Positions 1 to 12,258 of a DNA stretch of 64,000 nt are shown here, one piece after another. Position numbers and translations under genes: made by a program. The notes under the pieces were generated by a model. That model made no database searches and was not told the DNA's origin. It saw only the letters and a list, made by a program, of their open reading frames with translations. Source of the DNA: Sediminibacterium sp. (GTDB lineage Bacteria; Bacteroidota; Bacteroidia; Chitinophagales; Chitinophagaceae); assembly GCA_016786865.1 (NCBI GenBank), contig JAEUVE010000010.1, positions 62,001 through 126,000 on the forward strand. The letters are read 5' to 3'. Each line of letters opens with the position of its first letter. Positions within the stretch are counted from its first letter, which is position 1.

Positions 1-1
1 G

Positions 2-496
2 GAAAACGTGCGGATCATGATTGCACAGCTGGCAGATACATTCCGGTATTCGCTTCGGGCCAGCAAACTGAATCTGGTAAAACTGGAAGAAGAAATCCGT
101 TTCTTAGAAACCTATCTTTCCCTTGAAAAAGAAAGATTGGGCAGTCGGCTTAGCTACCGGATTAACTGCCCCAAAGAACTCCAACTGATCAGCATCCCTC
201 CTATGCTGATACAGCCACTGATCGAAAATGCATTGATTCATGGTATTGCCCCGGCAGCCAAAGGAGGAAGCATAACGCTCAACATCAGTCGCTTCGGGAA
301 TCATTTACAATTCACCGTTGCAGATACCGGATTGGGTTACTCAGGTGAGCTGGATGAAATATTGAAGCAGGATGGAATTGGATTGAATAATATCCGGGAA
401 CGCCTGATGCTCTTATATGGTGAGGAACTGAAGGTGACCAAAAATGACCCCACAGGACTTGTTTTTTCATTCATCATCCCCGTACAAAATGCCTGA
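2..496 (+). CDS. LytS-type sensor histidine kinase, C-terminal part
   Basis: This is the 3' end of a sensor kinase whose start lies left of the window; the reading frame is open to the edge. What remains is the end of the His_kinase region (ADTFRYSLR, the helix after the missing phospho-acceptor His) and a complete GHKL ATPase domain. That domain shows an N box (PLIENALIHG), a G1 box (DTGLGYS) and the GIGLNNIRERL G2 segment. Kinases of this type are usually inner-membrane proteins that phosphorylate a LytTR regulator. The next gene is exactly such a regulator and starts within or just after the last codons, so the two form one unit. The sensor input domain cannot be seen. Confidence 0.9.
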   Translation, partial: ENVRIMIAQLADTFRYSLRASKLNLVKLEEEIRFLETYLSLEKERLGSRLSYRINCPKELQLISIPPMLIQPLIENALIHGIAPAAKGGSITLNISRFGNHLQFTVADTGLGYSGELDEILKQDGIGLNNIRERLMLLYGEELKVTKNDPTGLVFSFIIPVQNA

Positions 497-1229
497 TATG
501 ATCACCGTACTGATAATTGATGATGAACGGGGAGCCAGGTCTCTGATCAGGGAATATTTATCCGGATTCCCGGAAATGTCTGTTCTGGGAGAAGCCTGTG
601 ATGGTGCGGAAGCAGAACAGATGATCCATGCGCTGAAACCCGATCTGATTTTTCTCGACATCCAGATGCCCGTATACAATGGATTTGAACTGGTGAAACG
701 GCTCACCTTTTTCCCGAAAATTATTTTCACAACGGCTTTTGACGAATTTGCCTTACGGGCTTTTGAAGCCAATGCCATTGATTATCTTCTTAAACCCTAT
801 ACAAGGGAACGATTCAGTAAGGCCGTAAGTAAAGTGTTGAACAGAACCGACAGCTCAAAACCCCTGCAGGATTTACTGGAAAACCTGATTATCAAAACGG
901 ATACACCTGTTAACTATATGCTGCTCGAAAAAGGGAAAGTGCTTGTTAATGTGGCTGTAGATCAGATCATGTACCTCGAAGCAGAAAAGGAATACACACG
1001 AATTGTTACTGCCGACAGCAGTTACCTCAGCAATCTGGGCATTACGCTGCTCGAGAAAAAACTAGACCCCACCAGGTTCATCCGCATTCATCGGTCTCAT
1101 ATTGTGCATATTGCTTTTATAAAAGAAGTACGAAAAGAGCCCAACAATTATCAGGTCATCCTTACAAATGGGAGCCTGCTGAATATTGGCAGAAGTTACC
1201 TGGATCAGTTTAAAAAACTGATTTTATAA
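489..1229 (+). CDS. LytTR family response regulator
   Basis: This is a two-domain response regulator of about 246 residues. The N-terminal receiver domain has the acidic pair (IIDDE, residues 10-13), the phospho-acceptor Asp in FLDIQMP (about D57), the conserved Thr in FTTAF and the switch Lys in LLKPY. The C-terminal LytTR DNA-binding domain covers roughly residues 140-245 (MYLEAEKEY, then FIRIHRSHIV). The ATG at 489 overlaps the kinase stop by 8 nt; a second ATG at 498 gives the tighter start MITVLIIDD and is equally possible. The frame is open further upstream, but that part overlaps the kinase and is not receiver-like. Its likely target is the barrel gene downstream, where a tandem repeat precedes the promoter. 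Confidence 0.93.
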   Translation: MPDMITVLIIDDERGARSLIREYLSGFPEMSVLGEACDGAEAEQMIHALKPDLIFLDIQMPVYNGFELVKRLTFFPKIIFTTAFDEFALRAFEANAIDYLLKPYTRERFSKAVSKVLNRTDSSKPLQDLLENLIIKTDTPVNYMLLEKGKVLVNVAVDQIMYLEAEKEYTRIVTADSSYLSNLGITLLEKKLDPTRFIRIHRSHIVHIAFIKEVRKEPNNYQVILTNGSLLNIGRSYLDQFKKLIL

Positions 1230-1235
1230 TCCATT

Positions 1236-1275
1236 TACGGTTGTTCGTAGGAAGATACGGTTGTCTGTAGGATAT
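1236..1275 (+). promoter_or_regulatory. tandem 20-bp direct repeat, probable LytTR operator
   Basis: Two head-to-tail 20-bp units start at 1236 and 1256. Both begin TACGGTTGT and both contain GTAGGA, so the period is two helical turns. LytTR regulators are known to bind pairs of short direct repeats about 20-21 bp apart. The site lies just after the LytTR gene and about 27 bp upstream of a TAnnTTTG element, where an activator site would be expected. Binding by this regulator is inferred. Confidence 0.6.
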
Positions 1276-1290
1276 ACCAACTGCAGGCTG

Positions 1291-1315
1291 TTCCGGCAGG
1301 CTATGTTTGCCGGAA
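1291..1315 (+). promoter_or_regulatory. -7 promoter element inside an inverted repeat
   Basis: TATGTTTG at 1302-1309 fits the Bacteroidota TAnnTTTG element. It sits between and partly within the arms of a perfect 8-bp inverted repeat (TTCCGGCA at 1291-1298, TGCCGGAA at 1308-1315). No TTTG is seen at the -33 spacing, which suits a promoter that needs an activator. The predicted transcript would start only a few bases before the ATG at 1320. Confidence 0.4.
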
Positions 1316-1319
1316 AAAA

Positions 1320-3737
1320 ATGCGATTCCTCCTTTTGGGTATTACCCTCTGCAGTTTTATTCCCGGTCTAGGACAGTCTAATGTTGCACAACCCTGCCTT
1401 ATCAGAGGAGTTGTATATGCAGACAACAAGCCGGTAGAACATGCAACCATCACAGTTTTGAGTTTACCAGATAGCCTGCCACTGCAAATGCAGGCATCTG
1501 CCAATAACGGCAGCTTCCATTTCAGCAACCAGTGCAAGGGAAAATTGTTGCGCATCAGCGCAACCGGCTATGCGAACCAGTTGCTACCAGCTCCTGCAGA
1601 TACCAGTGTTATGATAATCAACCTGGTTCCTGTAATCAACGACCTTACTGCTGTTACGGTAAATGCAGAAAGAAGAAGTGTACAGTCTTACCCCGACAGA
1701 ACAGTAGTGCGCGTAGACAATACCCCTTCGTATGCAGCATCCAATGCAATGGACATTCTGGAAAGGTCACCGGGGATTTCGGTTGACAGAGATGGCCAGA
1801 TCAGCATGCAGGGCAAGCAGGGAACCCTGCTGTTGATTGATGGAAAAAAAGTGTATGTAACTGCCCAGGAAGCCGCCAACCTGCTCCGTTCCATCAGCGC
1901 ACAACAGATCGACCATATAGAACTGGTTCCACAACCCTCTGCAAAATATGATGCATCTGGCACCGCAGGTCTGATACATATTCATACCAGATCAGGCCGA
2001 AGTACAGGCTGGAGTGGTAACAGCAGCCTCGTATTATCGGCAGGCAAATATGGGCGCGCCAGCATGAACAGCAATTTATTTTACCAGCAGCAAAAGCTTG
2101 CTGCAGCGATCTCTTATGCTACCGGTTATACACGCAATTTTTACGAAATCTTTATCAACAGGCAATACAGAGCAGCCGATAACAACATCACAACTCAATA
2201 CAACCAGCTTACAACCAATCCGGTTACCCAGGTACCCCACACCATCCGGGCAAATATGGATTACCGGATAAGCCCGGTAAAAACCATTTCATTACAGGCA
2301 GCTGCATTTATGAGTGAACTTACCGATGGGGGAAAAACAAGTACACAGATAGCGGATCTGTGGAAGGGAAAAACAGTGGGATCAACAGACTTCGGCAACC
2401 GGATTTTAAGGGCAAATTATTCCGGAGGCATCAGCTACCGGCAACAACTCGCCAACAAAGGCGACGAGTTTAGTATGGATGCGGATTACAGTTATTTCAA
2501 CCGGTCTAACACACAGACCAATCACAACTATTTATTTGATTCAGTAAATACGCCGGTAGGAACACCATACCTGCTAAGAGGAGATAATCCATCGCGCATC
2601 GATGTATATTCTGCCAAATTTGATCTGGTAAAAACCAACGCGCAGCAGTACAGATGGGAAACAGGAGCTAAGATGAGTTATGTAAGCACCACCAACCGTT
2701 CTGATTATGAAAACTATGCAGGAGGCAACTGGGTAAAAGATGCCCGTTCCAATCATTTCAATTACACCGAAAAAATCATGGCAGCCTATCTTTCTGTAAA
2801 AAAAGAATTCGGCAACTGGAACATTACGGCAGGAGCAAGACTGGAACATACCATGGCAGATGGCGTACAATTACAGAACAACCAAAGCTTCAGCAAACGA
2901 TACACCAACCTGTTTCCCTCTTTGAGTGTAACAAAAAAACTGGAGAACAATCAAACCCTTCTGTTTTCTTACAGCCGCAGGATCGACAGGCCCAATTACC
3001 AGGACCTGAATCCATTTCAGTTTATTCTGAACCAGTTTACTTTTCAGCAGGGTAATCCATTGTTATCGCCACAATTTACACAGGCAGTTGAAGCAGGCTG
3101 GTCTAAAAGGAATATCACCGCTAAATACTATTTCAGCCGGATCACAGACCTCATCAGCGATAATATATACCAGGACACGGTATTAAAACTAAGTTTTCAG
3201 CAAAAAGATAATTTGGCGGTAAAATTGATCCATGGCGTTAGTATGAACCTGAGTACCCGCATCTGGAACAAGCTGTCCTTGTCTTTTTATACCAATGTTT
3301 TTTACAATCGATTACAGGGAAAGATTGACCAGGAAACATTCCAGGTAGAAGCCATAGGAGGTTCAGCCAATGTTACCGCGCAGATTCAGTTACCCAAAAG
3401 CTGGAGTTTAGATCTAGCAACTACATATCAGCACAGAAACTATCTCTCGGCCCTCCTCTATGATAAGGGTTCGGCCAATATGACCATTGGCGTAGGAAAA
3501 CAACTGTTTTCCAATAAATGGAATCTTCGACTTATTGTAAGGGATCCTTTTCGATGGCAAAGAGTTTACTACAGCAGCTATTACAAGGGAGTTGATTTTT
3601 CGCTCAAACAGCTAACCGATAGCCGGCAGATCAGCTTCAGTATCTCTTACCGATTTGGAAAAGAAGCCAATCGATCTGCTACCAGAAAAAGCAGCGCTGC
3701 AGAAGAGCAGGTAAGAGCAGGAGCGGCTGGTTCCTAA
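1320..3737 (+). CDS. outer-membrane beta-barrel receptor with carboxypeptidase-regulatory-like domain
   Basis: This 805-residue protein begins with a signal peptide (MRFLLLGITLCSFIPGLGQ). A carboxypeptidase-D-regulatory-like fold follows at about 25-110 (IRGVVYADNKPVEHATITV), then a TonB-plug-like segment at about 130-220 (AMDILERSPGISVDRDG, ending in an AGLIHIHTR-type strand), then a long Tyr/Asn-rich barrel of the OMP_b-brl_3 type to the C-terminus (FSYSRRIDRPNYQDLNPF at about 540). The family sits in the outer membrane and resembles TonB-dependent receptors, but ligands are mostly unknown. The position directly behind a LytS/LytTR pair and its probable operator suggests control by that pair. 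The ATG follows an A-rich stretch, and no upstream start gives a signal peptide. Confidence 0.88.
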   Translation: MRFLLLGITLCSFIPGLGQSNVAQPCLIRGVVYADNKPVEHATITVLSLPDSLPLQMQASANNGSFHFSNQCKGKLLRISATGYANQLLPAPADTSVMIINLVPVINDLTAVTVNAERRSVQSYPDRTVVRVDNTPSYAASNAMDILERSPGISVDRDGQISMQGKQGTLLLIDGKKVYVTAQEAANLLRSISAQQIDHIELVPQPSAKYDASGTAGLIHIHTRSGRSTGWSGNSSLVLSAGKYGRASMNSNLFYQQQKLAAAISYATGYTRNFYEIFINRQYRAADNNITTQYNQLTTNPVTQVPHTIRANMDYRISPVKTISLQAAAFMSELTDGGKTSTQIADLWKGKTVGSTDFGNRILRANYSGGISYRQQLANKGDEFSMDADYSYFNRSNTQTNHNYLFDSVNTPVGTPYLLRGDNPSRIDVYSAKFDLVKTNAQQYRWETGAKMSYVSTTNRSDYENYAGGNWVKDARSNHFNYTEKIMAAYLSVKKEFGNWNITAGARLEHTMADGVQLQNNQSFSKRYTNLFPSLSVTKKLENNQTLLFSYSRRIDRPNYQDLNPFQFILNQFTFQQGNPLLSPQFTQAVEAGWSKRNITAKYYFSRITDLISDNIYQDTVLKLSFQQKDNLAVKLIHGVSMNLSTRIWNKLSLSFYTNVFYNRLQGKIDQETFQVEAIGGSANVTAQIQLPKSWSLDLATTYQHRNYLSALLYDKGSANMTIGVGKQLFSNKWNLRLIVRDPFRWQRVYYSSYYKGVDFSLKQLTDSRQISFSISYRFGKEANRSATRKSSAAEEQVRAGAAGS

Positions 3738-3778
3738 AGTTGAGCCATACGTGTAACGCGGAGGAAAATAGCTTCAGT

Positions 3779-3796
3779 ATACCTAAATATAGGTAT
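3779..3796. promoter_or_regulatory. inverted repeat upstream of the caspase operon
   Basis: ATACCTA (3779-3785) and TAGGTAT (3790-3796) form a perfect 7-bp inverted repeat with a 4-nt spacer. It lies in the only sizeable gap (110 bp) between the barrel gene and the caspase operon. It has no T tract, so it looks more like an operator than a terminator. A TAAATTCG sequence further down is one mismatch from a -7 element. Confidence 0.35.
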
Positions 3797-3847
3797 CAGC
3801 AAACTGTTGGAAACACATAAATTCGTATTTCCGACAAACTGCTAAAT

Positions 3848-5941
3848 ATGAAACCACTGAAGCAGCTTAGTGCCCTGCTATTTGTACTTTTTGTGATCAC
3901 CACACCTGCTGAGGCCCAATTCAGCAAATGGGAAAAGCTGGAGAACCAGGGAGATAGAAAATGGAAAAACGGCGACCTGGTAGAGGGTGAAAAACTGATC
4001 CGGGAAGCCTATAAAGAAAACCCCACAGCCAATATACTTTGGCGGCTGGCGCTGAAAAAATTAGACCTGGGAGACATCAAAGGGTACAACAGTGTCTGGA
4101 ATGAAATAGTTGACCCCATAAGAAAGATTGTTGCCCGCAACGATAACGAGCAAAACAGAAACGCCTTACGATCCTGGCTGGGGCTTCAGGCAGACAATAA
4201 TTTCAAAAAAGGAGACCCCTATCTTGCAATGAACCTGGGTATAGAAATGATCTGGTGTCTGGGAGATAAAATAAGCGGAGAAAAAGAGAAGGTTCCATTT
4301 CAGTATGCCTATTACAATACTTGCGAAACTGCTTATATACTTGGCCAGAAAAATGTGCTGGATTCTATGTATAAAATGTCGTTGCGCATTACGAATGGTG
4401 AATATGGCGTTTTGATGTCGAAGTACTTTCTGCACATGCACAACAAGCAGTATGATTCCGCTATTAACCTGATGCTGAAGACAGAAGAAGAAGGCGGAGG
4501 ATTTATGTACTCTAAACTGGTTGCGCGAACACTGTTGGCAATGGCATATGCGCAAACCGGAGAAAATGAAAAGTCGCTGGAATACGCAGAAAAGGCCAAG
4601 AAAAATATTTTTGTGGGAGATGGCGCATTCCAGGAAGTGTATGCGCGCGTTGCCATCAACCAGAAAAAATATGCCGAAGCCATTGGGTACATCAACACAG
4701 CCATCAAGGGTCGCACCTGGCAGTTTACCAGGGTAGAACCCATCGGAAAATACAAGTTGTATTATCTACGCGGTATTGCGCAGCAGGGAATGGGAGATCT
4801 TTTGAAAGCAAAAAAAGACTATGAATCTGCGCTGGTATACAACGAAACCTACGAGCCGGCAGTTAATGCACTGGCAGCGCTGGAAGGAAAAATGATCACC
4901 GGCAGAACAACCGATAAAACACCGCCCAAAATCAGTATTCTGGAACCTGCAGTAACCCGTGGACTGAAGGTAAGCACTACTGCAAAAGATGTACTGGTAA
5001 AAGGACTTGCAGAAGATGCATCCGGATTAAAATCGGTACAGATCAACGGTGCGGATGTATACAGCACGGAAAAGGGAGATTTCTGGGGTGCCGTACCCTT
5101 AAAAGAAGGAGCAAATAAACTCACCATCATGGCCACCGATCTGGCTGGTAACAGCGTGGAAGAGGTATTTGAAGTAGAAAGACAACAGGCCATACAGGCA
5201 AAAGAAGAAGATATTGTTCCGGCAAAACAAAAAGAGGGCAGGAATTTTGCCCTGTTGATCGCCAGTCAGAATTATACAGACCCGGCTATCCCTTCTCTGG
5301 AAAATCCGATTGCGGATGCCATAAAGCTGAAGATGGCATTGAAAAGTAACTACAATTTCATCGACGAAAACATTTTTACGGTTTTTAATCCAGACAAAGC
5401 AGATCTCCGAAAAAAATTATTGCAGGTATCGGAAGGCCTGGATCCGGAAGACAACCTGATCATCTTCTATGCAGGACATGGAATATGGGTAGACAAAGAG
5501 AAAAAGGGCTATTGGCTACTTACAGATGCACAAAGAAACGACATCAATACCTGGATACCCAACAAGGAAGTGTTAGACATGATTGCAAAAATCCCTTCCA
5601 GGCACACATTGCTGATCACGGACGCCTGCTTCTCCGGATCTGTTTTCAAAACCCGGGGATTGAGTGCAGACGCGCCCGCAGCGCTTAGAGAGATGTCGGA
5701 GAAAATCAGTCGGGTGGCCATTACTTCAGGAAACGATTCTGAGGTACCTGATGAATCCGTATTCATGAAGTACCTGATCAGGGCACTGACCAACAATCAA
5801 CAAAAATACCTCACTGCTCAAAAGATGTTCATTAACCATATTATAGAAGCAGTGATGAATGAAACCAAAACAGAGCCGAGATATGGAACACTTGAGCTGG
5901 CCGGACATGTGGGTGGCGATTTCATTTTTACGAAAAAATAG
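3848..5941 (+). CDS. exported TPR / Ig-like / caspase-fold protease (copy 1)
   Basis: The protein has 697 residues. A signal peptide (about 1-24, ending AEAQ) predicts export to the periplasm or beyond. Residues about 30-350 are helical TPR-like repeats (for example NQKKYAEAIGYINTAI, then GDLLKAKKDYESALVY). An Ig-like strand domain of the type preceding bacterial caspases follows at about 355-445 (TPPKISILEP, then ATDLAGNSVEEVF). The peptidase C14 domain covers about 465-690 and keeps the dyad: His544 in YAGHG and Cys594 in DACFSG. Caspase-fold enzymes cleave proteins after Arg, Lys or Asp; the substrate here is unknown. It is the first gene of a five-gene operon, 24 bp before the papain-like protease gene, and has a paralogue two genes on. 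Confidence 0.9.
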   Translation: MKPLKQLSALLFVLFVITTPAEAQFSKWEKLENQGDRKWKNGDLVEGEKLIREAYKENPTANILWRLALKKLDLGDIKGYNSVWNEIVDPIRKIVARNDNEQNRNALRSWLGLQADNNFKKGDPYLAMNLGIEMIWCLGDKISGEKEKVPFQYAYYNTCETAYILGQKNVLDSMYKMSLRITNGEYGVLMSKYFLHMHNKQYDSAINLMLKTEEEGGGFMYSKLVARTLLAMAYAQTGENEKSLEYAEKAKKNIFVGDGAFQEVYARVAINQKKYAEAIGYINTAIKGRTWQFTRVEPIGKYKLYYLRGIAQQGMGDLLKAKKDYESALVYNETYEPAVNALAALEGKMITGRTTDKTPPKISILEPAVTRGLKVSTTAKDVLVKGLAEDASGLKSVQINGADVYSTEKGDFWGAVPLKEGANKLTIMATDLAGNSVEEVFEVERQQAIQAKEEDIVPAKQKEGRNFALLIASQNYTDPAIPSLENPIADAIKLKMALKSNYNFIDENIFTVFNPDKADLRKKLLQVSEGLDPEDNLIIFYAGHGIWVDKEKKGYWLLTDAQRNDINTWIPNKEVLDMIAKIPSRHTLLITDACFSGSVFKTRGLSADAPAALREMSEKISRVAITSGNDSEVPDESVFMKYLIRALTNNQQKYLTAQKMFINHIIEAVMNETKTEPRYGTLELAGHVGGDFIFTKK

Positions 5942-5965
5942 TTTTCATACCAAAGTGTAACTGAA

Positions 5966-7411
5966 ATGAGAAAATACCACGGCTTCTTATTGTTCTGCCT
6001 GTTGCTGAGCGGGCTTCCGCTCGCTGGCCAGCAATTGTACCCAAAAGGGATGGAATTTGATGATGCGGCATACACTTCCATCAAAAGAAAAGCCAAACTC
6101 ACCCGGAGTCTGGATGCAGTGCCTGCGGTGTTTTCATTAAAACAATATGCCCCAATACCAAAATCGCAGGGCCCATACGGCACCTGCGCAGCATGGGCAA
6201 GCGCTTATTGCGGAAGAACTATGGTAGAAGCCATCAAAAACAACTGGACGAATCAACAACAAATAACAGAGCGGGCTTTTTCTCCTGCCTTTCTGTTTCG
6301 GCTGATCAAACCGGAAGATTCAACCTGCAGAGGCGGTGCCACGCTCCACCATGCATTCGAAACCATGCAAAGCAAAGGAAGCATTGCTTATGCGTCAGTT
6401 GCCGTGAATTGCACACCAGCTGTTATGCCATCACAGTTGGAAACGGCATCCCAATCGCGGATTAAAGACTTCATGCGCATCTTCGACAATGATGCAGCAA
6501 CAGAAATAAAAATACAGGCGGTTAAGAAATCGATCTCCGAAAAAAAACCCGTTGTATTTGGCATGATCTGCCCAAATTCATTTTTCAGCGCAAAAGATGT
6601 GTGGAATCCATCCCCATCGGAGGAGCCAGATAAAATACTTGGCGGCCATGCCATGTGTGTGGTAGGATACGACGACAGCAAGGAAGGCGGCGCTTTTGAA
6701 GTACAGAACAGCTGGGGCCGGAACTGGGGAAATGAGGGATATACCTGGATCCGCTACAAGGATTTTGCCCGCTTTACCCGCTATGCTTATGAATTCATTG
6801 ACCTGCCGGAACCCAAACCTGAAACACCCGACCTTTCCGGTTCCATCAAACTGATGCTGGCCAACGGAAACAATATGCCGGTAGATTTACTCATGTCTAC
6901 AAGAGGACTCAGTGTAGTTCCGGCCAAAACCATTGCAGCCCCGTTGACCATATACAAAACAGCTCAGGCCTATAGCTCCGGAACAAGATTTCGGATTTAT
7001 ATTTCCAACAACGAACCAGCCTATGTTTACGCTATCAGCACAGATCTGAGTAAGGAAATTACAAAAATATTCCCCTACAACGACAGCATCAGCGCTGCCC
7101 TCACCAATAATAAAAATGATGTAGCCATTCCGGATGAAGATCATTACATAGAATTCGACAACCAACCCGGAAAGGATTTCCTCTGTGTGCTGTATTCGAG
7201 AATCCCATTAAATATCAACAGCATCATTCAAAAAGTTGGCTTGGAAACGGAGGGCAGTTTTAATGAAAAAATATTCAGGGTAATCGGCAATGATCTGGTA
7301 GAGCCCAAAAACATACAATTTTCAAAAAACAATATCTCTTTTAGCGGCTTCAGTCGTGGTAAATCGGTTATTGCCATGATGGTAGAACTGGAACATCAAT
7401 CATTAAAATGA
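5966..7411 (+). CDS. exported papain-like C1 protease with DUF4384-like C-terminal domain
   Basis: This 481-residue protein starts with a signal peptide (to about residue 20, LPLAGQQ). The C1 papain fold covers about 45-280 and has the full catalytic set: the oxyanion Gln and Cys74 in SQGPYGTCAAW, His228 in GGHAMCVVGYD and Asn248 in VQNSWG. The region from about 290 to 430 (GTRFRIYISNNEPAYVYAIS, then IFPYNDS, then VAIPD, then LCVLYSRIPL) matches the pattern of DUF4384, a domain often found with caspases and other signalling proteins. No classical propeptide is evident between signal and protease. The gene lies between two caspase genes, 1 nt before the second, so all three are probably made together. 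Confidence 0.88.
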   Translation: MRKYHGFLLFCLLLSGLPLAGQQLYPKGMEFDDAAYTSIKRKAKLTRSLDAVPAVFSLKQYAPIPKSQGPYGTCAAWASAYCGRTMVEAIKNNWTNQQQITERAFSPAFLFRLIKPEDSTCRGGATLHHAFETMQSKGSIAYASVAVNCTPAVMPSQLETASQSRIKDFMRIFDNDAATEIKIQAVKKSISEKKPVVFGMICPNSFFSAKDVWNPSPSEEPDKILGGHAMCVVGYDDSKEGGAFEVQNSWGRNWGNEGYTWIRYKDFARFTRYAYEFIDLPEPKPETPDLSGSIKLMLANGNNMPVDLLMSTRGLSVVPAKTIAAPLTIYKTAQAYSSGTRFRIYISNNEPAYVYAISTDLSKEITKIFPYNDSISAALTNNKNDVAIPDEDHYIEFDNQPGKDFLCVLYSRIPLNINSIIQKVGLETEGSFNEKIFRVIGNDLVEPKNIQFSKNNISFSGFSRGKSVIAMMVELEHQSLK

Positions 7412-7412
7412 A

Positions 7413-9524
7413 ATGCACTATATGAAACGTTATGCAATTTTAGTAGCAATCATGTTTTTTTTGTTTGCCAATCGAACAAGCGCACAGCTTTTCCAAAAAG
7501 TACCCACTTTTGATGCCCGGGCAAACAGAGAGGCTGAAAGACTATGGAAAGATGGAAAATTTGCGGAAGCGGAAAAAATGATGGTGGCAGCCTACGAAAG
7601 AACGGGGGTGGTGAATCATATTGGGATACTGGCCCGCCTAAAATGGGAAATAGGTGATGTTAAAGGATACAATGCCGTAGCGGACAAAGTGATACAGCAC
7701 AACCTGAATCAATATGCCAAATCAGATTTATTAATGTACAGGATGGCGGTCCAGGGCAGCCTGGACGATAAATTTACTAAAAACGTAACTCAGGGAGATC
7801 CGATTGTTGGCTTAAAAACCGGGATGGAGTTACTGGATTTATTTGGTGATAAAATAAACGATTCGGAGAATGGATATTTTTATTCTTTTTATTCGAAGGC
7901 GCCAGAGATTGCATTTTTAACAGACGACAAAGCCACGCTGGAAAAGATGCACAGAAAAGTAAGCAGTATAAAGAATGCTAAAATTGCAGAAGTGTATACC
8001 TACGTATATCTGGGCATGGCCAATAAACAATATGATTCTGTCATCGCCAGACTGCTGGATATCGAAAAGAATGGCTCAGGATTTATGGGTTCCAAGTGGG
8101 TTGCCCGGGTTATGCTGGCTACAGTGTATACTTATAAGGGTGATAATGAAGAAGCATTAAAATGGATTGCCGAGGCCAAAAAAAACATCATGACAAATGA
8201 CAGTTTTTTTAAAGATTTATACGGACAAATAGCACTGAATCAGAAAAAATATCCCGAAGCAGTAGAAAAGTTAACAAATGCCTTAAAAGGACGAACTGTT
8301 CTCTGGGCGCATATAGAGCCGGTAAGTAAGTATAAGCTCTATTACCAGCGAGGGCTGGCGTATATGGGCATCAATGAGGTTCAAAAAGCCAAAAAGGATT
8401 TTGAAGCTTCACTTGTATATAATAAAACCTATACGCCCTCCATTAATGCCCTTGCATCACTGGAAGGAAAAATGATCACAGACAGAATAACCGATAAAAC
8501 ACCTCCCAAAATCAGCATACTTGAGCCCGCAGTAACAAGGGGATTAAAAGTAACCACTTCGGCAAAAGATGTAATGGTAAAAGGCCTTGCAGAGGATCCA
8601 TCCGGATTAAAATCTGTTCTGATCAATGGCACATCTGTTTACAGCACGGAGAAAGGAGATTTCTGGGGATCGGTACTTCTGAAAGAGGGCAACAACCAGC
8701 TGACGATTGTTGCAACAGACCTTGCAGGTAACAGTATAGAAGAAATATTTGAGGTGGAAAGACAACAGGCTACAGCCCAAACAAGCAGCGACGATATTAT
8801 TCCGGCCAAACAAAAAGAAGGAAAGAATTTTGCCCTGCTGATCGCCAGCCAGAACTATACAGATCCTGCTATTCCATCCTTAGAGAATCCAATTGCAGAC
8901 GCAGTAAAACTAAAACTGGCATTAAAGAACAACTACAATTTCCAGGAAGAAAATATATACACCCTGTTTAATCCCGACATTTCGGATTTCAGAAAGAAAT
9001 TTCTGCAGATTTCAGAAAACCTGGATCCCGACGACAACCTCATCATATTCTATGCCGGGCATGGTATATGGGTAGACAAAGACAAGAAAGGATATTGGTT
9101 GCTGACCGATGCACAACGAAACGACGTAAATACCTGGCTACCTAATAAGGAAGTGCTGGGCATGATTGCGGAAGTGCCTGCCCGCCACACATTGCTTATC
9201 ACCGATGCCTGTTTTTCAGGATCCGTGTTCAAAACCAGGGGACTGAGTGCAGAAGCCCCGGCAGCCTTGCGCGAAATGTCGGAAAAGATCAGCCGGGTAG
9301 CCATCACATCTGGCAACGATTCAGAAGTACCTGATGAATCTGTATTCATGAAACACCTGATTAAAGCGTTGAATGAAAACAAAGAGAAGTATTTTACGGC
9401 CCAGAAAATGTTTATCACACAGATACTGGAAGCAGTGATGTCCGAAACCAAGACAGAACCGCGTTATGGTACACTCGAGCTGTCGGGGCATGTAGGTGGT
9501 GATTTCATTTTTGTAAAGAAATAA
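7413..9524 (+). CDS. exported TPR / Ig-like / caspase-fold protease (copy 2)
   Basis: This 703-residue paralogue of the first caspase gene has the same order of parts: signal peptide (to about 25, RTSAQ), TPR-like helices (about 30-350), Ig-like domain (about 355-445) and C14 domain. The dyad is present as His550 (YAGHG) and Cys600 (DACFSG). The Ig-like and caspase parts are almost identical to copy 1 in protein sequence, while the TPR half has diverged clearly. DNA differences in the conserved part are largely silent. This points to an old duplication with selection on the catalytic half and different partners for the TPR half. The start could also be the ATG at 7422 (MKRYAIL). Confidence 0.9.
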   Translation: MHYMKRYAILVAIMFFLFANRTSAQLFQKVPTFDARANREAERLWKDGKFAEAEKMMVAAYERTGVVNHIGILARLKWEIGDVKGYNAVADKVIQHNLNQYAKSDLLMYRMAVQGSLDDKFTKNVTQGDPIVGLKTGMELLDLFGDKINDSENGYFYSFYSKAPEIAFLTDDKATLEKMHRKVSSIKNAKIAEVYTYVYLGMANKQYDSVIARLLDIEKNGSGFMGSKWVARVMLATVYTYKGDNEEALKWIAEAKKNIMTNDSFFKDLYGQIALNQKKYPEAVEKLTNALKGRTVLWAHIEPVSKYKLYYQRGLAYMGINEVQKAKKDFEASLVYNKTYTPSINALASLEGKMITDRITDKTPPKISILEPAVTRGLKVTTSAKDVMVKGLAEDPSGLKSVLINGTSVYSTEKGDFWGSVLLKEGNNQLTIVATDLAGNSIEEIFEVERQQATAQTSSDDIIPAKQKEGKNFALLIASQNYTDPAIPSLENPIADAVKLKLALKNNYNFQEENIYTLFNPDISDFRKKFLQISENLDPDDNLIIFYAGHGIWVDKDKKGYWLLTDAQRNDVNTWLPNKEVLGMIAEVPARHTLLITDACFSGSVFKTRGLSAEAPAALREMSEKISRVAITSGNDSEVPDESVFMKHLIKALNENKEKYFTAQKMFITQILEAVMSETKTEPRYGTLELSGHVGGDFIFVKK

Positions 9525-9528
9525 GCCC

Positions 9529-10704
9529 ATGCGCAATTCCGTTAAATGGCTGATCAGTTTTTTTCACGCTTTCCTGCTGCTGTTTTTTGCAATATGGTGG
9601 CAGAGCAGCAGTTTTACCTATGGCGATGAGCGCTTCCTGGTAACCTGGTCGTCCATTTTCAAAAGAGTAGCGCTGCACATAGACGAAGATCCGCCTGCCA
9701 AAGATTATTTGTTCATCAACCTCGCATACGACAAATCATTGATTCCGAGAGAAGAGGGAACCGGCGTGGAAGTGATCACCGACAGAAAGCTATTGGCCGA
9801 TTTTTTTTCGATCCTGCAAAAAAATCAATCAACATACCAGTATGCAGTTTGTGATGTATTACTGAAAGGACAGTCCGAGAACGACAGCGCCCTCCGGCAA
9901 TCTGTTGCGGGAATCAAAAACATCGTGTTTCCCGCCGAAATAACAGACAGCGGCAAAGCCGAATTATCAGTACCTGTTCCGGCAGCCAGTGCAGATTATG
10001 AAATAGCCAGAGAAGGATTTCTGAAGTTCAGGCTCATGCAGCACGGTGAAGCTTCATTACCGGTACACATGTATGAACAGCTCCAACATAGAACCATACA
10101 AAAAACATGGTATGGCTGGGCAGAAGGCAGCAGGCCAATGATCAACTCGATCATTATCGACTATAAGATCCGGCCACACGAATTATTCGAGGAAGGAGAA
10201 TACCCTGTTATGTCTCTCTCCGAACTAATGCTGTTGCCCGAAGAAGTGATCGTGAACGAATTCCTGAAAAACAGGATCATTCTGATGGGCGATTTTGAGC
10301 ACGATGTGCATGAAACCGTTTTTGGACCGGCACCCGGCACACTGATACTACTGAATGTATACCTGAATCTGAAAGACGGAAGACACCTGCTGAATCTGTG
10401 GTGGCTGTTGTTTGTTATAGCCGGTTTTACCGTTTTATCGAGGCAGGTGCTTTTTCCCGGAAAACAGCAAAATGAGCAAGTGGGATCGGGCTGGTGGTTA
10501 TCGCTGCTGCGCGTAGTTACCTTCCTGTCTGTGTTATCTGTGGCATCCTTTCTTTTATTCAACCAGCATATTCAGGTATTGGTACTGGCGCTGTATTTCA
10601 ATATCATCGGGTTTATTCTGCAACTAAAACGGTCCGATCTGGGTTGGCAAAAACTCAAGGATTGGTTCTTAGAATTAAGAGGAATATTTTTTAATTTCAA
10701 ATAA
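9529..10704 (+). CDS. CHASE2-like membrane sensor protein without output domain
   Basis: The protein has 391 residues. An N-terminal membrane segment (about 6-24) is followed by an extracytoplasmic region of about 260 residues with CHASE2 features: FINLAYDKSLIP, then ITDRKLLADFF, then AVCDVLLKG, and near its end IILMGDFEHDVHETVFGPAPGTLILLN. Two or three membrane helices follow (about 285-365), then a short basic tail. CHASE2 domains usually feed a cytoplasmic kinase, cyclase or similar module, but none is present here. The signal may therefore pass to a partner, and the exported proteases and FecR-like protein of the same operon are the obvious candidates. It starts 4 nt after caspase copy 2. 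Confidence 0.75.
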   Translation: MRNSVKWLISFFHAFLLLFFAIWWQSSSFTYGDERFLVTWSSIFKRVALHIDEDPPAKDYLFINLAYDKSLIPREEGTGVEVITDRKLLADFFSILQKNQSTYQYAVCDVLLKGQSENDSALRQSVAGIKNIVFPAEITDSGKAELSVPVPAASADYEIAREGFLKFRLMQHGEASLPVHMYEQLQHRTIQKTWYGWAEGSRPMINSIIIDYKIRPHELFEEGEYPVMSLSELMLLPEEVIVNEFLKNRIILMGDFEHDVHETVFGPAPGTLILLNVYLNLKDGRHLLNLWWLLFVIAGFTVLSRQVLFPGKQQNEQVGSGWWLSLLRVVTFLSVLSVASFLLFNQHIQVLVLALYFNIIGFILQLKRSDLGWQKLKDWFLELRGIFFNFK

Positions 10705-10705
10705 T

Positions 10706-11506
10706 ATGAAAAGAAGTTTTTTATTGATCTGCCTGTTGCCCTTACTGGCACTTGCACAGCCGGAAACCTATTATGTTACTTTCCTGAAAGGAACTGTAAT
10801 TAATCAGCAGACCAAACAGGCCATTAAAATCGGCGACAAGCTGAGTGCAACAGACAAGCTTATTTTCAAGGACTCCCAGGGCAAGCTGGCCTGTATCAGT
10901 CCGGGGAAAGGCCGGTTTGAACTGAGCGGACAAAAACTGCAGGCCGACAAAAGCGGAGAACTGCTGGCCATACTCAAATCCAATCTTCTTCCGGTTACCA
11001 ACACCTACCACTTAAGTACACGTGCCCTGGTATTTGAAGGATATGACCCCAAAACCTATTTCAATGCAGCAGAAACAGGTGAACGGATATTGCTGCTTAC
11101 CGACAAAGCGTTACCGATCATTCCTGCCTGGAAAATTGATGCGGCGCACTTCTTTTTTATTCAATACAACAACAGCAATGGTAAACCAGTAACAAAAAAG
11201 ATTCCCTACTCCGAAAAAGGCCTGCTTTTCAATACAGCTGTTTTTACAGATGAAGCAGGCAATGCCATTGATCAGAAAGTAATGCTCTGTTACCAGGCAA
11301 AAGAGAACGAAAAAGCATATTCACAGGTACTCGCATCATTTCTACCGGTACTGGCCGAAACCAGTTCCATCAAAGAACAATTACAGCTGATCAAAAAATA
11401 CAGTTCAACAACAGACAAGAAGAAACTGCAGGCCGAACTATCGGCACATATCTACACCAATTTTGGGAAGATTGGCGCTGAGGAGCTGGAAATGCTGATG
11501 CAATAG
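10706..11506 (+). CDS. exported FecR-like protein, last gene of the caspase operon
   Basis: This 266-residue protein has a short signal peptide (MKRSFLLICLLPLLALAQ). Residues about 20-75 (VTFLKGTVINQQTK, then IKIGDKLSATDKLIF, then LACISPGKGRFELSG) follow the strand pattern of FecR-type domains, which sense or scaffold in the periplasm. The rest has no recognised domain; the C-terminus is helical and charged. It lies 1 nt after the CHASE2 gene. CHASE2 and FecR proteins are known neighbours in other bacteria, which supports a shared function. The FecR call rests on pattern only and is moderate. Confidence 0.6.
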   Translation: MKRSFLLICLLPLLALAQPETYYVTFLKGTVINQQTKQAIKIGDKLSATDKLIFKDSQGKLACISPGKGRFELSGQKLQADKSGELLAILKSNLLPVTNTYHLSTRALVFEGYDPKTYFNAAETGERILLLTDKALPIIPAWKIDAAHFFFIQYNNSNGKPVTKKIPYSEKGLLFNTAVFTDEAGNAIDQKVMLCYQAKENEKAYSQVLASFLPVLAETSSIKEQLQLIKKYSSTTDKKKLQAELSAHIYTNFGKIGAEELEMLMQ

Positions 11507-11532
11507 GCATATAGCAGCTCCAAACAAAGCGG

Positions 11533-12258
11533 CTACTCAAACAACCAGAACCGATGAAAGTGGGGCTTCACTTTGAAGGTCTTTTTAATGTAGGTTGCAA
11601 TGAAATTCATGGCTTCATCTACATCGTCTGTGAAAAGAATTAGTTTCTTATCATTCTCGGAGATTGCGCCTTTCACCACCATATCCTCAATTACTTCTTT
11701 AAGCGGAGCATAATATTCCGTACCAAACAGCACCACCGGAAAATCATAGATCACTTTAGTCTGGATCAGCGTAATGGTTTCGAACAGCTCATCCATTGTT
11801 CCGAAGCCGCCGGGCAAAATGATGAAAGCATAGGAATATTTAACCAGCAGTACTTTCCGGATAAAGAAATAGTCGAAGGTGATGGATTTGGTAAGATAGG
11901 GATTGGGGCGTTGTTCAAAAGGAAGTTTGATGTTCACACCTACCGAGGTTCCGCCATTTTCAAATGCACCCCGGTTGGCTCCTTCCATGATTCCGGGCCC
12001 GCCCCCGGTCATGGTGGTGAAACCCAGTTCCGATATCATTTTGCCAATCTTCCGGGCATTTTCATAATAGGGATGACCTTCATTAAAGCGGGCGCTGCCA
12101 AATACAGTAATGCATGGGCCAACAAAGTGCAGGGTTCTGAAACCTTTGATAAACTGGGTAAAAACATTCCACGCAAAGACGAATTCCTTTCTCCTGGGCC
12201 GCGGACCTTCCAGAAACACGGGTTCTTTTGCCGGAATAATCCGGTTATTACTATCCAT
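11533..12258 (-). CDS. LOG family protein (TIGR00730 type nucleotide phosphoribohydrolase)
   Basis: This 241-residue protein has a Rossmann-like fold and the two signature motifs of the LOG/lysine-decarboxylase-like family: GGGPGIMEGANRGA (about 85-98) and PGGFGTMDELFE (about 152-163). Characterised members hydrolyse nucleoside 5'-monophosphates to base and ribose 5-phosphate, including cytokinin nucleotides. It is cytosolic, with no signal peptide. It is convergent with the caspase operon (26 bp apart) and divergent from the next gene, so it is probably not functionally tied to the operon. Confidence 0.88.
   Translation of the reverse strand: MDSNNRIIPAKEPVFLEGPRPRRKEFVFAWNVFTQFIKGFRTLHFVGPCITVFGSARFNEGHPYYENARKIGKMISELGFTTMTGGGPGIMEGANRGAFENGGTSVGVNIKLPFEQRPNPYLTKSITFDYFFIRKVLLVKYSYAFIILPGGFGTMDELFETITLIQTKVIYDFPVVLFGTEYYAPLKEVIEDMVVKGAISENDKKLILFTDDVDEAMNFIATYIKKTFKVKPHFHRFWLFE

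Follow-up and report, generated by a model that had tools for sequence, protein, structure and literature searches.

A conserved operon of predicted exported caspases and a CHASE2 membrane protein in Bacteroidota: a possible envelope-side protease switch

We analyzed a stretch of 64,000 nucleotides from Sediminibacterium sp. (Bacteroidota; GenBank assembly GCA_016786865.1, contig JAEUVE010000010.1, positions 62,001 to 126,000 of the forward strand), referred to below as the window, and followed up an operon of five genes that encode two TPR/Ig-like/caspase proteins (casA and casB), a papain-like protease with a DUF4384 domain (C1P), a membrane protein of the known CHASE2 sensor type and, next to it, a small protein referred to as the companion. 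Caspase-type proteases are the enzyme family behind cell suicide in animals. The five-gene cluster is more than a chance grouping: it is a conserved assembly. At a probability of roughly 40%, we read the conserved module as a switch made of proteases that would work in the envelope, at the outer surface of the inner membrane; a variety of recognition arms would have one protease in common. This design is supported by the conservation of the neighborhood, by the predicted membrane topology and by an apparent exchange of protein halves between caspase copies.

Conservation of the neighborhood and of the caspase array

A genome scan with an alignment of CHASE2 proteins identified 13 loci (loci are numbered here with the prefix L, genomes with the prefix G). 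In all nine loci with the closest CHASE2 proteins (at least 50% identity), a caspase gene lies directly upstream of CHASE2 and a companion gene directly downstream; contigs L073, L074 and L078 start within the caspase gene. When L164, a repeat of L077, and the single genome behind L079, L086 and L162 are each counted once, 18 of the 22 distinct other loci have a caspase open reading frame (ORF) at most 0.8 kb from CHASE2, two of them (L096 and L165) by our own caspase profile alone. The original prediction had treated the five genes as one assembly, and the gene order, looked for in other Bacteroidota, is indeed that of a conserved assembly and not of genes found separately.

Since 22 caspases from the loci served to build the caspase profile, matches to those sequences follow by construction. 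Independently of the profile, the caspases of L073-L082 and L085 are identified by their resemblance to casA and casB, and those of L082, L097, L098 and L099 by the Pfam family PF00656; L163 and L166 were outside the profile and both carry PF00656. The caspase-like domains of L096 and L165 match our profile at E-values of 3.3e-15 and 4.2e-15, with GHG and DAC motifs, and are located in proteins of 1,307 and 1,560 amino acid residues, respectively, encoded on the strand opposite CHASE2. PF00656 was not found in a Pfam scan of the L096 protein. A protein of 252-288 residues, a candidate companion, adjoins CHASE2 in L096, L097, L099, L165 and L166.

Eight operons, including the one in the window, are complete: in each, CHASE2 and the companion come after a set of caspase genes, from one to nine in number. 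There is one caspase in Mucilaginibacter sp. L3T2-6 (L076) and in Solitalea agri (L077), two each in the window, Pedobacter planticolens (L075) and P. ginsengisoli (L085), three in P. foliorum (L080), four in L163 and nine in Flavihumibacter soli R14 (L079 with L162). The nine genes of the latter stand in tandem between the papain-like gene and the CHASE2/companion pair (L162, G213:C96:334000-353000, minus strand, together with L079). Seven of the eight complete operons include the papain-like gene; it is the first gene in six of them and, in the window, separates casA from casB. In L076 this gene is absent and the caspase follows other genes; the same organism has a papain-related gene on a separate contig (P0181). 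Contig sizes in public data also support a physical linkage of papain-like and CHASE2 genes: among 48 CHASE2 contigs with a size of 8 kb or larger, 14 are identical in exact size to a contig with a papain-like protein, compared to a mean of 0.04 and a maximum of 1 in a shifted-size control; some of the 14 are from organisms already among the loci described above.

Several individual loci show variations of the arrangement. L081:6057-9938 encodes a WD40-caspase fusion of 1,293 residues directly before CHASE2 and the companion; this contig is labelled as a Thermoplasmatota archaeon, which is probably a binning error. A caspase with a DUF4384-like tail is found near an output-less CHASE2 and a small neighbor in L104 and L116, a second and distinct caspase/CHASE2 arrangement. 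L083 has a CHASE2-companion pair without a caspase, and two genes past it a trypsin/HtrA-like protease (L083:13458-14552, motif recognized by eye), possibly a swap of protease type. Finally, ten tandem ORFs of 237-283 residues, most of them with an SGNxNHGxxF-like end, adjoin the CHASE2 gene in L095 (L095:92-7681).

Protein identities, membrane topology and the two halves of the caspases

The five genes lie on the same strand with gaps of 24, 1, 4 and 1 nucleotides, and all ORFs of the original prediction were recovered where it had placed them (Table 1). Pfam searches also bore out its domain assignments for casA, casB and C1P. casA and casB match PF00656 (E-values of 1.9e-14 and 8.5e-13) and contain TPRs and PF09136, an Ig-like domain of the glucodextranase-B type; C1P matches PF00112 (8.1e-12) and DUF4384 (1.1e-9). 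All catalytic residues are present, as had been claimed. Judged by a PF00656 match over the cut-off together with the His/Cys dyad, casA and casB are C14 caspase-like peptidases (orthocaspases/metacaspases); by the same type of evidence, PF00112 over the cut-off together with Gln/Cys/His/Asn, C1P is a C1 papain-like peptidase (rows L009 and L010 were excluded from the comparison of papain catalytic residues). The dyad is kept in 22 of 22 and 20 of 20 caspases of two overlapping sets and in all four caspases of L163.

Table 1. Features of the operon and its surroundings in the window.
Feature	Position	Strand	Basis
casA, predicted exported TPR / Ig-like / caspase protein, 697 residues, dyad H544/C594	3848..5941	+	Pfam, residues, hydropathy
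C1P, predicted exported papain-like protease with DUF4384 tail, 481 residues, Q68/C74/H228/N248	5966..7411	+	Pfam, residues, hydropathy
casB, predicted exported TPR / Ig-like / caspase protein, 703 residues, dyad H550/C600	7413..9524	+	Pfam, residues
CHASE2 membrane protein, 391 residues, without output domain	9529..10704	+	Pfam, alignment, structure model
CHASE2 companion, 266 residues, predicted exported; not a PF04773 FecR protein	10706..11506	+	Pfam, model, profile comparison
110-nucleotide gap 5' of casA, likely seat of the operon's own promoter	3738..3847	+	ORF spacing
Insert of about 12.2 kb, part within the window (whole insert G000:C17:61328-73532, left end 673 nucleotides before the window)	1..11532		same-genus comparison

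Signal peptides had been assigned to the soluble members, and a hydropathy estimate predicts export for all four. Their N-termini carry a net charge of +2, and the hydrophobic core, taken over 11 residues, scores 2.70-3.15. In 48 other long ORFs of the window the median core is 1.36, although a value of 2.3 is reached by 17 of these, several of which begin like signal peptides. A coarser 19-residue hydropathy scan is passed by casA and CHASE2 only, leaving the other three soluble proteins unflagged.

The CHASE2 protein of the window scores 26.2 bits against PF05226, for which the cut-off is 26.3 bits; many of its relatives carry PF05226. Its family comprises 123 proteins at an E-value of 0.001 or better, with names that include Pedobacter, Solitalea, Mucilaginibacter and Daejeonella. 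Most relatives are near 390 residues long, with a range of 234-419 among the 120 matches listed, the shortest of which align to part of the query. The structure model (predicted local distance difference test score, pLDDT, of 84; predicted template modeling score, pTM, of 0.82) has four helices of membrane-spanning length. A helix at residues 3-26 precedes a globular domain (about residues 34-285); three helices in the C-terminal part and a short tail, likewise helical, come after it. The model agrees with the topology expected for CHASE2, namely an N-terminal helix, an extracytoplasmic domain and C-terminal helices, and the sensory domain is predicted to lie outside because the N-terminal K/R residues are placed inside. 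An alignment of 38 rows contains no extra domain. Together with Pfam and the model, it upholds the claim that the protein has no output domain. In the model, CHASE2 would have no recognizable cytoplasmic domain for passing a signal on, and the predicted side of the proteases is the side of the sensor. The absence of an output domain seems to be the rule in the class: 39 of the 43 PF05226 matches in a low-sensitivity search of 395 genomes are in ORFs of 364-455 residues.

The model of the companion (pLDDT 85.7) begins with a domain rich in beta structure, continues with a beta part that has weak Ig-like structural matches and ends in helices. The original prediction had described this fifth protein as FecR-like, an identity that does not hold. 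Nothing in Pfam scored over the cut-off, PF04773 gave no match even at an E-value of 1, and hhalign assigned a probability of 0.1% against 14 true FecR domains taken from the same and related genomes; the companion was therefore rejected as a FecR-domain protein. Over its first domain, the companion family resembles other small CHASE2-adjacent proteins (hhalign probability 94.4%, 63 columns). The latter had a probability of 0.3% against FecR in the profile comparison, and none of the ten scanned matched PF04773. The companion profile included proteins of L094, L096, L097 and L099 that were picked by size and place, and matches to those four were not counted. Three members of the genus have the companion alone; the stretches read there contain neither a caspase nor CHASE2.

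The two halves of the caspases have different histories. casA and casB are 28-50% identical in their TPR parts and 84-86% identical in their Ig and caspase parts, and in the nine-copy array median pairwise identity is 19% for TPR, 51% for Ig and 76% for caspase. Silent-site divergence (dS) falls steeply where the two halves meet: between copies 3 and 4 of L163 it goes from 1.06-1.62 across the TPR half to 0.11-0.24 across the Ig/caspase half, and between the L075 copies from 1.32-1.45 to 0.43-0.72. Because constraint on the protein alone is not expected to cause such a step at silent sites, the protease halves of neighboring caspase copies were most likely exchanged in these two loci. Trees of the TPR half and the caspase half of L075 disagree; we preferred dS over trees as an indicator of exchange because the TPR alignments are poor.

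Chromosomal insert and phyletic distribution

The operon resides in an insert flanked by the gene of a 271-residue protein on the left and a LOG-family gene (window 11533-12258) on the right. Upstream of the operon, the insert also holds genes for a histidine kinase, a LytTR regulator and an outer-membrane barrel (TonB-plug/barrel gene). Every one of the 61 sampled genomes of the genus has a match to the LOG-family gene, in some of them to a distant paralog only. A search of 42 relatives from the genus found the CHASE2 gene in none, and tblastn detected none of the five operon proteins beside the LOG-family gene in eight same-genus genomes. In four of these eight, the LOG-family gene abuts the 271-residue gene, which in the window's genome is about 12.2 kb away; in two, another, shorter insert separates the two genes; in the remaining two, the LOG-family gene is followed by other genes, and the stretch read contained no match to the 271-residue gene. 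The variable site (window 11507-11532, G000:C17:61328) carries different inserts in G021 (a 604-residue protein and a RhuM/Fic protein) and G041.

Matches to CHASE2 were obtained in 8 of 395 genomes of the class and in 5 of 251 genomes of the family of G213, 12 of them distinct and the window's included; both counts are lower bounds, as searches of this kind lose sensitivity. The large class searches missed the window's own CHASE2 and both its caspases, and were not used for co-occurrence. The position in an insert at a variable site and the patchy occurrence fit an accessory, conflict-type system.

As for the upstream gap (Table 1), a scan for the sigma-70 consensus gave no site on the plus strand, a promoter/terminator scan gave no signal above shuffled sequence, and no Rfam families were found in the window. 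An inverted repeat, ATACCT/AGGTAT with a 6-nucleotide spacer (window 3779-3796), lies upstream of casA; it is a possible operator, and by a rough estimate is within chance for its length.

The proposed switch, its rivals and related systems

In the proposed switch, the caspases would be kept inactive in the periplasm. CHASE2 and the companion would detect an envelope signal via the periplasmic domain of CHASE2 and would form a fixed sensor and dock for the common Ig-caspase half, while each TPR arm would bring its own recognition or substrate specificity, and the papain-like enzyme may be an auxiliary protease working with the caspases. The signal would need no membrane crossing, and envelope damage or attack is predicted to lead to cleavage of proteins in the envelope. 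The response would most likely be damaging or lethal rather than housekeeping turnover, a view favored by the expandability of the array, its patchy occurrence and its seat in a variable chromosomal insert. A bolder version is a system for innate immunity or suicide in the periplasm of some Bacteroidota. Its repertoire of exported caspases, from one to nine in number and with copy-specific TPR arms, would recognize different intruder or damage signals, exchange would homogenize the Ig-caspase half, and the orphan CHASE2 and the companion would fire the system outside the inner membrane; this version we regard as doubtful.

Several findings weigh against the switch. No caspase was detected near CHASE2 in 4 of the 22 loci (L083, L084, which is a 6-kb contig, L094 and L095). 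Distant CHASE2 genes of the class, detected by Pfam, have a caspase ORF in only 3 of 20 neighborhoods (L100, L104 and L116), and the caspase link is thus a mark of this CHASE2 family, not of CHASE2 generally. Silent divergence of the casA/casB pair is saturated or nearly so in every segment (dS of at least 1.7 where finite), which argues against a recent exchange in this pair; gene conversion was looked for in it, and none was seen. The ratio of nonsynonymous to synonymous divergence (dN/dS) exceeds 1 in no segment with finite dS, which gives no support to diversifying selection acting on these arms (TPR). CHASE2 relatives were absent from the viral contigs and plasmids searched, results that favor neither a mobile origin nor a role in defense. 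PADLOC-DB returned no complete defense system and generic matches only, namely a generic caspase model (E-values of 1.7e-6 and 1.8e-6) and, for casA, also a Csm3 model (0.009). Foldseek gave no match in PDB at an E-value of 0.001 or below for the CHASE2 or the companion model.

The module might instead be a regulated-proteolysis stress pathway, with CHASE2-responsive caspases that trim envelope proteins or anti-sigma factors and adjust physiology without killing. A dN/dS below 1 agrees with this explanation, as do the histidine kinase, LytTR regulator and outer-membrane barrel upstream in the same insert and the example of a Burkholderia operon, in which a FecR-domain protein and a CHASE2 kinase control biofilm (PMC5192318; here and below, statements on published systems refer to the accessible portions of the cited sources). 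However, phmmer (E-value 1e-5) finds no relative of the kinase, regulator or barrel in L073, L075-L080, L085 and L162-L164, and up to nine caspase copies exceed the need of a single trimming step; we consider the pathway rather unlikely. The original prediction had offered, as a working idea, a two-step cascade, the papain-like enzyme activating the caspases, or the reverse, upon a CHASE2/FecR signal. The papain-like gene is indeed present in nearly all complete operons, and DUF4384 is also fused to the caspases beside CHASE2 in L104 and L116, in both slightly below the curated cut-off. Yet the L076 operon is complete without this gene, although the related gene P0181, on another contig of that organism, could still serve a cascade there, and the caspase number varies from one to nine; a fixed two-step cascade is therefore unsupported. 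The FecR part fails as well, and we consider a cascade improbable.

The presence of several predicted exported proteases, with a TonB-plug/barrel gene upstream in the window, could also suggest nutrient scavenging by an envelope protease set that degrades imported or surface proteins. By Pfam, however, the five genes include no transporter, the operon is not accompanied by a relative of the upstream barrel in the closest of the other loci examined, and the pairing with a CHASE2 protein is constant, all of which makes scavenging very unlikely.

The proposed switch has partial counterparts among known systems. The EACC1-caspase two-gene conflict system (PMC7159879) likewise couples a membrane-linked component to a caspase. 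casA and casB match the EACC1-associated caspase model (E-values of 2.1e-18 and 1e-18) at 66.6 and 67.6 bits, below its cut-off of 140, and an adjacent EACC1 single-helix membrane gene was not found, the neighbors being C1P, CHASE2, the companion and the outer-membrane barrel; an EACC1 system was therefore rejected. Unlike in EACC1, the proteases described here are predicted to be outside the cytoplasm and form an expandable tandem array; for the caspase systems compared here, the published location is in the cytoplasm or on it (PMC7159879, PMC3501461), although the latter paper also notes exported metacaspases. CHASE2 and FecR do not occur in the main text of PMC7159879. EACC2 caspase proteins (PMC8195603) also bring caspase and CHASE2 into one system, but as a single protein with a C-terminal CHASE2 behind the EACC2 domain and the caspase, whereas here the genes are separate and the N-terminal half of casA and casB is TPR and Ig-like by Pfam. 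A metacaspase and CHASE2 are similarly fused in one protein in the cyanobacterium Trichodesmium (PMC2853523, PMC3501461), where the caspase domain was suggested to be cytoplasmic (PMC3501461), on the side opposite to that predicted here. The BiofilmReg operon of Burkholderia, with a FecR-LysM protein and a CHASE2 histidine kinase (PMC5192318), likewise pairs a CHASE2 protein with a small exported partner, but its CHASE2 has a kinase output, the operon has no caspase, and the companion described here is not a PF04773 protein.

We found no paper on CHASE2, caspase and FecR together in the open-licence PubMed Central literature, and no description of the caspase/CHASE2/companion/papain assembly in the accessible portions of the open-licence literature. 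Neither export nor an array of a few copies is a novelty as such, because a 2012 survey of metacaspases noted both: many have an N-terminal helix that is a possible signal peptide, 30 were assigned as extracellular, and 20 operons, with Bacteroidetes among the groups, have more than one metacaspase, three at most (PMC3501461). The accessible part of that survey describes no CHASE2/companion/papain assembly, and the arrays reported here reach nine copies. If the proposed switch is true, output-less CHASE2 proteins would gain a plausible role, namely passing a signal to proteases that share their side of the membrane. Isolates of Pedobacter, Solitalea and Mucilaginibacter carry the operon, and an envelope caspase system is directly testable in them.

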